Assembly: GCA_937921935.1 (NCBI GenBank) | Contig: CAKZWQ010000005.1 | Coordinates: forward strand, 62,001 to 126,000 | DNA: 64,000 bases | DNA from: an uncultured Gammaproteobacteria bacterium | Lineage (GTDB): Bacteria > Pseudomonadota > Gammaproteobacteria > Steroidobacterales > GCA-2729495 | Direction of reading: 5' to 3' | Shown: positions 13,409-36,140 of the stretch, piece by piece | Layout: every line of letters begins with the position of its first letter | Numbering within the stretch: position 1 is the first letter of the stretch | Made by a program: the position numbers and the translations under genes | The notes under the pieces: model-generated | Seen by the model: only the letters and a program-made list of their open reading frames with translations | What the model was told of the DNA's origin: nothing | The model's database searches: none

Positions 13409-13770
13409 CGGAGCCGGCCAGGCAACCGCTCGGCCTTGGGCCGGGAGGAAAGTCCGGGCTCCTGCGTGACAGGGTGCCAGGTAACGCCTGGGGGGCGCGA
13501 GCCCACGGAAAGTGCCACAGAAAATATACCGCCGGCTTTGGCCGGTAAGGGTGAAAAGGTGCGGTAAGAGCGCACCGCGCGGGTGGTAACACGCCGCGGC
13601 ACGGCAAACCCCACCCGGAGCAAGACCAAATAGGGGAGCAGCAAAGGCCGTAAGGCCGGCGCACCGGTGTCCGCCCGGGCTCCCGGGTAGGTCGCTAGAG
13701 GCCATCGGCGACGGTGGTCCCAGATGAATGGTTGTCCTCGACAGAACCCGGCTTAACGGCCGGCTCCTTC
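13409..13770 (+). ncRNA. rnpB: RNase P RNA, bacterial class A
   Basis: Catalytic RNA of RNase P, which matures tRNA 5' ends. Universally conserved elements are directly readable: GAGGAAAGTCCGGGCTCC (P4/CR-I region), GGTAAGGGTGAAAAGGTGCGGTAAGAGC-type CR-II/III sequence given here by position 13543-13571, and near the 3' end AGATGAATGGTTGTC followed by CAGAACCCGGCTTA. The ends pair perfectly as helix P1: GGAGCCGGCC (13410-13419) with GGCCGGCTCC (13758-13767). Length of about 360 nt fits class A. The rsmI-rnpB-mraZ order is found in pseudomonads and relatives. Confidence 0.97.
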
Positions 13771-13787
13771 TTCTTCCCGCTTCATTC

Positions 13788-31738: not shown

Positions 31739-32047
31739 TTAGTCAGCCGGCGAAACACGTACGCGAACCCGGGCAGCTTGCGGATTATGTTGCCGGCAAA
31801 GTTGCAGCAGTCGATCACTTTCAAACCGCAGTCTCGTGGCCCATTCAGGTCCGCTGGCTAACAGAACCAGGGTGCCGTCTTCACGCAGATTGCAGGCGCT
31901 CAGATGCTCTGCCAGTTCAGGCTCCAGCGCGTCGCGCAAGCGCTCGCTCAGGGCGACCCGGGCAGCCGCCTCCCGGGCAAGTCGTCCCAGGCCAGACTGT
32001 GAATCAGTTATCAGTCCAGACAGGGACTTGGGTTCTTTATCTGACAT
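31739..32047 (-). CDS. dciA: DUF721 protein DciA, replicative helicase loader
   Basis: 102-residue DUF721 protein. Members are the ancestral loaders of DnaB in bacteria that lack DnaC/DnaI. The family core is visible: LREDGTLVLLASGPEWATRLRFESDRLLQLCR (a KH-like fold with the conserved W-A-x-x-L-R segment), with a helical N-terminus. It is transcribed opposite to both neighbours; its 5' end is divergent from the riboswitch leader of the M23 gene. Position between ftsZ/lpxC and secA is conserved in many gammaproteobacteria. Confidence 0.88.
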   Translation of the reverse strand: MSDKEPKSLSGLITDSQSGLGRLAREAAARVALSERLRDALEPELAEHLSACNLREDGTLVLLASGPEWATRLRFESDRLLQLCRQHNPQAARVRVRVSPAD

Positions 32048-32086: not shown

Positions 32087-32115
32087 TTGTAGCCCTCAGG
32101 GCCGTCCGGCATAGT
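32087..32115 (+). promoter_or_regulatory. candidate promoter of the riboswitch-M23 transcript
   Basis: TTGTAG (32087-32092), a 17-bp spacer and CATAGT (32110-32115). The transcription start would fall near 32121-32123, right at the 5' edge of the riboswitch aptamer. The match is moderate; the support is spacing and position. Confidence 0.5.
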
Positions 32116-32120
32116 TTATA

Positions 32121-32203
32121 GACGAAATGGCAAACCTGTCGAAAGACGGGGACGCAAAACCACCGATCTACGGGATTTTCCTAGGATAGCGGGGTTGCCG
32201 AAT
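32121..32203 (+). ncRNA. cyclic-di-GMP-I riboswitch (GEMM class)
   Basis: Conserved GEMM-I features in order: GGCAAACC (32129-32136); stem P2 CCTGTC/GACGGG closed by a GAAA tetraloop (32141-32144); GGGACGCAAA (32148-32158) containing the intercalating A equivalent to A47 of Vc2 (32156); stem P3 with the tetraloop-receptor strands GATCTA/TAGGATAGC; and the closing GCGGGGTTGCCGA (32189-32201). The ligand-contacting positions equivalent to Vc2 G20 (32129) and C92 (32198) are G and C, predicting c-di-GMP rather than cGAMP specificity. I could not match the outer P1 helix clearly. The leader serves the M23 gene 82 nt downstream. Confidence 0.9.
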
Positions 32204-32284
32204 GAGAATCATCGAGTTGCGCCACGGCGTGGGGACGCCAGCGACGCGAATATTCAAATCCGTCAACCTAACAAGGTGTGCGTT

Positions 32285-33247
32285 ATGCCCGCTGTCAACA
32301 ACAATGGGGTCAAGACGGACCTGATGAACATTATTATTTTTCGTCGCGGCGGTGTTGCTCGCTATGTGTCTATGTCGGCACGGGTGCTGGGTTTTTGCGC
32401 CGCGCTGGTTGCCATTGTTTCCGGCGCTGGCTTCGTGGGTGGCTACTACTCGGCCCAGGGTGTTGCCGTGTCTCGCTCAGTGGCTGAGGTCAATGACCTG
32501 CAGAAAGAACTGCTAACCCAGCAGAGAATTCTTGAAGAACTGCGTGGTGATGCGCGCGAAGAATTGGATGCACTCACCCTGAAAGTCGGTCAGCTTAATG
32601 CCAATGTGATTCGCATGAATTCCCTGGGGCGGCGGCTTACGAACATGGCCGACCTGGATGCCGGCGAATTTGATTTCGACAGCCAGCCTGCATTGGGCGG
32701 TCCGGCCAGTGTGGCGATGGCCTCATCGGCCGGGCAGGTGACTGATATTTTTTCCGAGATCAGCTCGCTCGATAAGACCCTGCATGGTCAGGAGCAGCAA
32801 CTGATGGTCCTGGAAAGTGTGCTGCTGAAGCGGAAGCTCCATCAGCGCGTTTATCCCCAGGGTCGTCCCGTGCGTGCGGGTTACCTTTCCAGTCGCTTCG
32901 GCCGCCGGACGGACCCATTTACGGGTAAGGGTGCCTACCATCGCGGCGTGGACTTCGCTGGTCGCGCCGGGTCGGAGATTGTCGCCGTGGCAGCCGGTGT
33001 GGTGACCTACTCAGGTTCGAGATCGGGCTACGGGAATATGGTCGAGATCAATCACGGTAATGGCTATGTGACTCGCTATGCTCACAATGCCGAGAATCTG
33101 GTCGCTGTCGGCGATGATATTGCCCAGGGGCAAAGTGTGGCGCTGATGGGTTCCACTGGCCGGGCCACGGGCCCCAACCTGCATTTTGAGGTGCGTCATC
33201 TGGGTCGCCCGGTCGATCCGCTGCGCCACATCCCCGAGACCACCTGA
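32285..33247 (+). CDS. membrane-anchored M23/LytM-domain protein under the riboswitch
   Basis: Inner-membrane-anchored, coiled-coil-containing LytM protein of the secA-adjacent type. One membrane helix (about residues 34-57), a coiled coil (LQKELLTQQRILEELRGD onward), then a C-terminal M23 domain with HRGVDF (zinc His and Asp), GVVTYSGSRSGYGNMVEINH and TRYAH. The usual HxH motif reads NLHFEV, so the first His is replaced by Asn; this may reduce or abolish hydrolase activity and suggest a regulatory LytM role. The ATG at 32285 follows AAGGTG; an ATG at 32324 (MNIIIFRRGG) is an alternative start. 320 residues. Confidence 0.9.
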   Translation: MPAVNNNGVKTDLMNIIIFRRGGVARYVSMSARVLGFCAALVAIVSGAGFVGGYYSAQGVAVSRSVAEVNDLQKELLTQQRILEELRGDAREELDALTLKVGQLNANVIRMNSLGRRLTNMADLDAGEFDFDSQPALGGPASVAMASSAGQVTDIFSEISSLDKTLHGQEQQLMVLESVLLKRKLHQRVYPQGRPVRAGYLSSRFGRRTDPFTGKGAYHRGVDFAGRAGSEIVAVAAGVVTYSGSRSGYGNMVEINHGNGYVTRYAHNAENLVAVGDDIAQGQSVALMGSTGRATGPNLHFEVRHLGRPVDPLRHIPETT

Positions 33248-33395
33248 TTCCGCCCCCGGGCAAAGGCCGCCGGGCCGATCCGGCTCCATCTCTACATTAA
33301 TCCTCGTACAATAGCGGGCTTTGTTCCCGTGGCGAGCCCGTGCCCGCCGCATAGCTACCTGCTCCGGGCTTGGGCAGGCTGACAGGGAGAGACCT

Positions 33396-36140
33396 TTGGC
33401 TAATGTCCTGACACAGATGTTCGGCAGCCGGAACCAGCGCTTACTGCGCCAGTACGGCAAGCTGGTCAACCGGGCGAACGCCCTGGAAGACGAGTTTCGT
33501 GCCCTGGATGACGCGGCACTGCGCGAGAAGACCAGCGAATTTCGTCAACGCCTGGATGACGGCGCCGATCTGGATGATCTGTTGCCGGAAGCTTTCGCGG
33601 TCGTTCGCGAGGCGGCCGATCGCAGTCTGGGCATGCGGCATTTCGATGTTCAGCTGGTGGGTGGCATCGCGCTTCACCAGGGCAAGATTGCGGAGATGCG
33701 TACGGGCGAGGGCAAGACCCTGGTGGCAACCCTGCCAGCGTACCTGAATGCTTTGCCGGGTGACGGCGTACACATCGTTACAGTCAATGACTATCTCGCC
33801 GCTCGGGATGCCGGCTGGATGGCTCCCGTCTATGAGTTTCTCGGACTGACGGTTGGGGTGATTCGCAATGGACAGACCCAGGACGAAAAGCGTGCTGCCT
33901 ACGGTGCTGACATTACTTATGGCACCAACAATGAATTCGGCTTCGACTATCTGCGGGACAACCTGGCCCTGCATAAGCCAGACCAGATGCAGCGCAAGCT
34001 CAGCTTTGCCATTGTTGACGAAGTGGATTCCATCCTCATTGATGAATCACGCACACCGCTGATCATTTCCGGACCAGCCGAAGACAGTTCTGAGCTGTAT
34101 ACACGGATCAACAAGCTGATTCCTGCCCTGCAGGTGCAGGCAGAAGAGGATGGCCCGGGTGATTACAGCGTTGATGAAAAAACCAAGCAGGCCAATCTGA
34201 CTGAAGAAGGGCACGAGGCTGTCGAGGACTTGCTGAGCAAGGATGGCCTGATTCCTCCCGGAGCCAGCCTTTATGACGCCGGCAATATCCGACTTATGCA
34301 CCATGTGACCGCGGCCCTGAGGGCCCACGCCTTGTTCAAACGTGATGTGGAGTACGTGGTACAGAACGGTGAAATCGTCATTGTCGATGAGTTTACCGGG
34401 CGGACCATGCCCGGTCGACGCTGGTCCGACGGCCTGCATCAGGCCGTCGAGGCGAAAGAAGGCGTGCAAATCCGGAATGAGAATCAGACGGTTGCGTCCA
34501 TTACCTTCCAGAATTTTTTCCGTATGTACGACACACTGGCGGGAATGACTGGTACCGCCGATACGGAAGCCTTCGAGTTTCAGCAGATTTACGGTTTGGA
34601 AGTCGTGGTTATTCCAACCCACAGGAATATGGTTCGCGATGATCAGCCGGACCTGATGTTCCTGAATACCGCAGACAAGTTCGACTCGATCATCGAGGAC
34701 ATCAAGGACTGTCAGGAGCGCAAGCAACCTGTGCTCGTGGGTACGACTTCTATCGAAGCTTCGGAGTTGCTCGGGCGCCTGCTTAATGAAGGCAAGATCG
34801 AGCATCAGGTCCTCAATGCCAAGCAGCACGAGCGGGAAGCCACCATCATCGAGGAAGCGGGCCGGCCGGGCACGGTAACCATCGCAACCAATATGGCCGG
34901 GCGCGGCACGGATATCGTCCTGGGCGGCAATCTTGGCGCTGAGCTCAAAGCGCTGGGGGATGATCCGGATGAGGCGGCCGTGACGACTCTGCAGCAGGAC
35001 TGGGAGCAGCGTCATGAGGCGGTTCTGGCGGCAGGCGGGTTGCGCATCATCGGTACGGAGCGTCATGAGTCCCGGCGGATCGACAACCAGTTGCGCGGCC
35101 GGGCAGGGCGCCAGGGCGATCCGGGATCAAGCCGCTTCTATTTGTCCATGGAAGACAACCTGATGCGCATCTTCGGGGACCCTGAGCGGACCAAGAATAT
35201 GTTGAGTCGCGTCGGCATGCGCGAAGGTGAGGCCATTGAGAGCAAGCTGCTCACCCGCCAGATAGAAAAGGCGCAACGCAAGGTGGAGGCTTACAACTTC
35301 GATGCCCGCAAAACCCTGCTGGAATATGACGATGTCGCTAATGAACAGCGACGGGTGGTTTACCAGCAGCGTAACGAGCTGATGGAGTCTGAAGATGTCG
35401 CCGATGTTGTCGCCGGCATCCGCGAAGAGATTGTGCATGGCGTGGTGGATGAGTATGCATCGCCGGAAGGCCTGGCCGCGGACTGGAATCTGCCTGGTTT
35501 ACAGCAAGCCCTGGCCAGTGAGTTTGCTGTGGAGATCGATCTCGATAGTTTCGTCAGCGCCAGCGGTACACCGGACCATGACGCCCTGAGGAACAAAGTC
35601 CTGGAGGACGTTGATCGGGCTTACGAAGCGAAAGTAGAAGAAGTCGGCCCGGAGATCATGCGGCAGTTTGAGAAAGTCGTGATGCTCAGCCAGCTGGATT
35701 CTCACTGGAAGGAGCACCTGGCGGGCCTGGATTACCTGCGTCAGGGTATTCATTTGCGCGGCTACGCCCAGAAGAATCCAAAGCAGGAGTACAAGCGCGA
35801 AGCCTTCGATATGTTTGGCACCATGCTTGACCAGATCAAGTACGACACGATCAGTGTCCTGGGCCGCGCCCGCCTGCGCAGCCAGGAAGAAGTTGAGGCC
35901 CTGGATGAAAGTCGGGCCACCACCCAGGTTGAGGCGCGCCATGATCAGGTTAGCGCCGTACCTGCGGGTGCACCGGTTGCCGCGCCGCCCCCGGCCGCGC
36001 CCGGGCGGCCCCAGCCAGGAGCGCCCCTCGCCGAACAGGCTGCGCCCTTCGTCCGCGAAACGCCGAAAGTCGGCCGCAATTCCCCGTGCCCCTGCGGCTC
36101 GGGCAAGAAGTACAAGCATTGCCACGGGCAGGTCAGTTGA
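33396..36140 (+). CDS. secA: preprotein translocase ATPase SecA
   Basis: Motor ATPase that drives unfolded proteins through SecYEG. The TTG at 33396, with AGGGAG 8 nt upstream, gives [20 protein letters not shown], matching the family start (914 residues). Walker A is [45 protein letters not shown] and [18 protein letters not shown] are family hallmarks. A proline/alanine-rich linker precedes the zinc-binding SEC-C tail [14 protein letters not shown], which contacts SecB and lipids. Confidence 0.98.

Follow-up and report, generated by a model that had tools for sequence, protein, structure and literature searches.

The locus analysed here raises the question of whether an RNA leader in front of a cell-wall peptidase gene beside secA is a working cyclic-di-GMP (c-di-GMP) riboswitch and, if so, which ligand it binds, which gene it controls and by which mode. 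The whole stretch of DNA that was analysed, 64,000 nucleotides in length, is referred to below as the window. The leader very probably is a genuine c-di-GMP-I riboswitch, placed at the 5' end of the mRNA and regulating an inner-membrane M23 peptidase, likely at the level of translation, with secA mostly separate from this control; ligand binding, the translational mechanism, the direction of the response and a joint role in cell wall and type IV pilus are the parts of this explanation that we infer.

The leader contains the following RNA elements:

32119..32202, plus strand: c-di-GMP-I (GEMM-I) riboswitch aptamer, RF01051, identified by cmscan, covariation and ligand-contact residues.
32135..32150, plus strand: P2 hairpin CCUGUC-GAAA-GACGGG with a GAAA tetraloop, pairs mapped from the Rfam consensus.
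32158..32196, plus strand: P3 and P3b stems, including UCUAC...CCUAGGA, mapped from the Rfam consensus.

Search of the whole 64-kb window with Rfam cmscan placed RF01051 at 32119-32202 on the plus strand with 83.1 bits (E 7.3e-15), i.e. 48 bits above the gathering score of 35 bits, and the alignment extended over the full length of the model (1-87) without truncation. The earlier note, made from the letters alone, had assigned the leader to this class at 32121-32203; the class was confirmed, and the coordinates proved right to within 1-2 nt. RNase P class A RNA (13410-13771, 312 bits) was the sole other Rfam match in the 64 kb. Covariation was assessed in 25 aptamers, 22 from the M23 locus in relatives and three from elsewhere in the same genome: 11 of the 21 pairs changed on both sides and 95.2% of cells were paired, a level of covariation matched in 0 of 500 shuffles. 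All six pairs of P2, which is closed by the GAAA tetraloop at 32141-32144, showed both-sided changes across relatives. Folded alone, the aptamer reached -25.5 kcal/mol (z -1.8). The UCUAC...CCUAGGA region presumably corresponds to the tetraloop-receptor strand of the c-di-GMP-I family.

The equivalents of the ligand-contact residues G20, A47 and C92 are located at 32129, 32156 and 32198, positions that were assigned against the Vc2 reference sequence. Since all three residues are present, c-di-GMP is the predicted ligand of the window aptamer, and the reasoning of the earlier note, which had named these residues and read the ligand from G20, is borne out by them. Across the aptamers of the M23 locus A47 and C92 were invariant (80/80), and G20 occurred in 75 of the 80. 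Some orthologous leaders were labelled RF03167 (c-di-GMP-I-GGC), a label that we rejected as a model-boundary effect; G20, A47 and C92 are kept in these leaders.

The remaining five M23-locus aptamers carry A20 in place of G20 and come from two other lineages, families f10 (L054, L055, L326) and f11 (L306, L311). These five, and the fact that the class includes cGAMP-selective members with A20, are what would speak for 3',3'-cGAMP rather than c-di-GMP as the ligand. For the window such a reading is extremely unlikely: position 32129 is a G, where GEMM-Ib requires A20; a cGAMP aptamer of Geobacter becomes selective for c-di-GMP upon the A20G change (PMC6456294); and the two A20 genomes checked (G058 and G397) yielded no GGDEF domain of the Hypr type (D to S), which is evidence against a cGAMP pathway of that type residing in them. 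Because A20G flips selectivity in Geobacter, the ligand response at the M23 locus may nonetheless have changed in the A20 lineages themselves. The pilM aptamers keep G20 in the three A20-bearing f10 genomes checked. As a separate observation, G045 and G058 (L341-L345, L347) hold divergent GEMM-I elements of about 113 nt that score lower and read GCC versus the GGC of the class; this GCC type occurs in many copies per genome, and for G042 similar long matches were recorded by place only.

The predicted c-di-GMP aptamer of the window is preceded by a promoter:

32087..32115, plus strand: sigma-70-like promoter with -35 TTGTAG (32087-32092), a 17-nt spacer and -10 CATAGT (32110-32115), recognised as a pattern in relatives.

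Three nucleotides separate the end of CATAGT from the aptamer. A TTG...-N17/18-CATAGT-like pattern precedes 73 of the 80 M23-locus aptamers as compared with a mean of 1.5 in shuffles, 61 of these patterns having the 17-nt spacer, and the distance to the aptamer is 2-7 nt in most loci. The promoter is also kept in relatives that are devoid of the aptamer. A generic consensus scan did not call the window promoter at 32087-32115. As the promoter ends directly upstream of the aptamer, transcription should start at the aptamer, with which the mRNA would then begin; with the M23 start 121 nt downstream, the aptamer occupies a 5' UTR position.

Between aptamer and coding start lies the segment through which any response would have to be exerted:

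32203..32323, plus strand: linker and presumed expression platform, 121 nt, judged from linker length in relatives, terminator scan and folds.

Most relatives have a linker of about 110-140 nt, the sequence of which is not conserved across families; its likeness between genomes did not exceed that of a shuffled version, pairwise identity with lax gaps being a poor yardstick. Terminator scan and folds revealed no intrinsic terminator between the window aptamer and the coding start, and for this reason translational control of the M23 leader appears most likely, as far as can be inferred. Genus g9 (L047, L048, L052 and L059) supports this mode for its own members: a stretch after the aptamer, e.g. 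GGCAAACAAC, pairs with GUUGUUUGCC directly before the Shine-Dalgarno sequence, and a compensatory version of this predicted long-range helix occurs in L048. Such a helix adjacent to the Shine-Dalgarno sequence was found in genus g9 only. Start-site accessibility, computed for 61 leaders with the aptamer forced versus free, shifted in no consistent direction, with a mean change of +0.02 (14 up, 7 down). Rho-dependent or other transcriptional termination, acting in the leader or the early coding region instead of at translation, would suit a linker that is long and poorly conserved, and one terminator-like site is situated inside the coding region (32375-32390); this mode is less likely, given that the leader is free of intrinsic terminators from aptamer to start and that the g9 helix, with its compensatory change in L048, abuts the ribosome-binding site. 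Within the favoured translational mode, switching ON at high c-di-GMP is slightly preferred, with low confidence.

The covariance search with RF01051, proposed in the earlier note for the locus and its relatives, was significant, and the aptamer was recovered in 78 of 104 M23 leaders sampled within the taxonomic order to which the window belongs, distributed over 10 of 15 families, whereas none of the approximately 104 syntenic M23-secA loci outside the order has it; the pairing of riboswitch and M23 gene beside secA is thus upheld. Of the loci within the order, the 64 with long flanks were examined for synteny with secA, the other 40 being short, and the sole match in the class sample (L102, which is G059) counts as an order member. 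About 29 of ~181 non-order genomes (~16%) possess GEMM-I elsewhere, none of them at the M23 locus among the places listed. With approximately five GEMM-I per genome, the recurrence of one ahead of this M23 gene in three quarters of the genomes cannot be ascribed to chance.

The aptamer is absent from 26 of the 104 order members and is therefore not essential. Several stages of its loss can be discerned. Genus g5 (L044, L045) and L061 retain, at the homologous position, a degenerate aptamer of 15-18 bits in which several conserved residues are lost:

L044 2541-2626, minus strand: degenerate GEMM-I remnant, recognised by homologous position.
L045 1300-1385, plus strand: degenerate GEMM-I remnant, recognised by homologous position.
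L061 2521-2603, minus strand: degenerate GEMM-I remnant, recognised by homologous position.

Genus g2 (L046, L049) has kept the promoter and apparently deleted the aptamer, and in G002 (L043), a congener of the window genome, just a P2-like fragment is left. The simplest reading of this distribution would be that the aptamer was gained in the ancestor of the order and then lost repeatedly. No relatives were found among viral contigs. The decay in several sister lineages, taken with an accessibility computation that did not demonstrate an expression platform, could also be understood if the aptamer had ceased to regulate and persisted as an inert relic or as a constitutive element of the 5' UTR. 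We regard this as very unlikely, since the residues that contact the ligand and the compensatory base pairs have been preserved in 10 families, unlike the linker with its shuffle-level likeness between genomes.

A functional riboswitch at this place would act on the following gene:

32324..33247, plus strand: membrane-anchored M23 (LytM-type) peptidase, PF01551 115 bits, invariant start in the alignment.

The regulated gene had been described earlier as a cell-wall LytM/M23 gene beside secA, and both the domain (PF01551, 115.3 bits versus a cut-off of 28.7) and the neighbours agree with that description. The probable start is the conserved ATG at 32324 (the invariant M14 of the alignment), with an alternative in-frame ATG at 32285. 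The protein, 308-321 amino acids long, has a single membrane segment at its N terminus, followed by a coiled part (both judged from sequence), and ends in the M23 domain. Residues H219, D223, H267 and H300 are invariant, whereas the first H of the HxH motif is N298, as in many relatives, so that the motif reads NLH with the remaining zinc-site residues kept; catalytic activity is accordingly likely, albeit uncertain given NLH. All cut-offs of the named NCBIfam M23 families (MepM, NlpD, EnvC, ShyA, DipM) were missed, the best score being 96 against 341, and the protein therefore represents an M23 subfamily without a name. Among solved structures the best matches of the M23 domain were 3slu and 6muk, which we take to be Neisseria NMB0315 and gonococcal Mpg, respectively.

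The genes on either side bear on the question of whether secA is a target as well:

31739..32047, minus strand: dciA, the divergent upstream neighbour, PF05258 45.5 bits.
33307..33312, plus strand: -10-like TACAAT of a probable separate secA promoter, from M23-secA intergenic sequences.
33396..36140, plus strand: secA, TTG start inferred, from the ORF list and start position.

The M23 gene lies next to secA, in the same orientation, at 104 of 107 non-order loci and at 49 of 50 loci of relatives (counting ortholog loci only, at all 49), the median distance between the two genes being about 170 nt; their adjacency is class-wide. One might conclude from such constancy that secA is the physiologically important target and that the riboswitch tunes an M23-secA transcript, hence export capacity, with the M23 gene in the place held by secM in E. 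coli. This is unlikely on two counts: the gene order is class-wide and the riboswitch is not, and a TACAAT-like -10, which hardly varies between M23 and secA among the inspected relatives, indicates that secA probably has a promoter of its own and points to separate transcription. The M23 peptidase is the preferred target. According to the mechanism we propose, changes in cellular c-di-GMP would be sensed by the aptamer at the mRNA 5' end; the ligand-bound aptamer would alter translation initiation and consequently the amount of M23 peptidase; secA, transcribed from its probable own promoter, would be affected at most in part; and the peptidase would remodel the wall in step with type IV pilus assembly, pilM having a GEMM-I of its own.

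The latter step draws on the wider genome, which encodes 16 GGDEF domains and five GEMM-I. The other four stand before pilM (PF11104, 417 bits), a redoxin-led set, a gene for an FAD-binding protein and a small exported pair, the first member of which was scanned and gave no Pfam match.

L004 1501-1628 (G000:C29:32596-32723), minus strand: long-P3 GEMM-I upstream of pilM, 128 nt, in the same genome as the window.

Matches of a length similar to this long-P3 element were found across the family. The earlier note had tied the locus to type IV pili encoded 6-14 kb away. Indeed, the minus strand carries, between 38.1 and 46.1 kb, genes that we named pilD, pilC, pilB, pilA, pilR and pilS after reading their translations, and cmscan of the 64 kb detected no GEMM-I in front of the pil genes inside the window; the pilus link is better supported by the pilM riboswitch than by that distance. 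The peptidase activity of Mpg, an M23B enzyme, is needed for full gonococcal piliation (PMC11980366). As pilM has a GEMM-I and the M23 domain encoded in the window matches a structure that we take to be Mpg, a piliation peptidase, a c-di-GMP programme common to pilus assembly and local opening of the wall is a reasonable hypothesis, and a link between c-di-GMP, cell wall and type IV pilus is plausible, if unproven. We would suggest only tentatively that an order-wide riboswitch on the M23 gene of the ftsZ-secA region lets wall opening co-vary with the assembly of type IV pili, the pilM operon being under a riboswitch as well, and with A20 possibly altering the ligand response in two sub-lineages.

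The pairing recurs in most of the genomes sampled from the order and not in the rest of the class, which suggests that bacteria of this order tie cell-wall remodelling to c-di-GMP, the "settle down" signal. Only a few connections between c-di-GMP and the remodelling of peptidoglycan are known, and most of them run through proteins. A genetically simple RNA link to a single M23 enzyme, kept across an order and accompanied by natural losses in sister genera and by A20 replacements at the M23 locus, would open the question of whether the signal adjusts the wall to a direct test by point mutations in the aptamer. It also gives a role to the secA-adjacent M23 gene, conserved class-wide yet without a named family. 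The RNA class is established; its conserved target, M23 beside secA, appears undescribed in the searchable literature, for no M23/secA target of GEMM-I was found in the literature searched, the original GEMM target lists being outside its reach.

Several known systems share part of this arrangement. Mpg (NGO1686) of N. gonorrhoeae is a periplasmic M23B peptidase which differs from the window protein outside the M23 domain, and riboswitch control of it was not encountered in PMC11980366. RgsM and EagA are membrane-anchored or MepM-like M23 proteins that are tied to c-di-GMP signalling by routes other than a leader riboswitch, namely by interaction with the protein RgsP in Sinorhizobium meliloti (PMC6107284) and through eagA transcription in Erwinia amylovora (PMC7705223). 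The cGAMP-selective GEMM-Ib of Geobacter is of the same RNA family, and several of its representatives control pilus or cell-surface genes, one of them a lipoprotein transpeptidase operon (PMC6456294); the window differs from it by G20, A20 at the M23 locus being confined to two lineages other than that of the window. With the c-di-GMP-I riboswitches Vc2 and Vc1 of V. cholerae, the window aptamer has in common the fold, the covariance model, the GAAA tetraloop and the G20/A47/C92 contacts, whereas its target is an M23 peptidase beside secA, as against the motility, biofilm, adhesion and pilus genes of the described GEMM-I.
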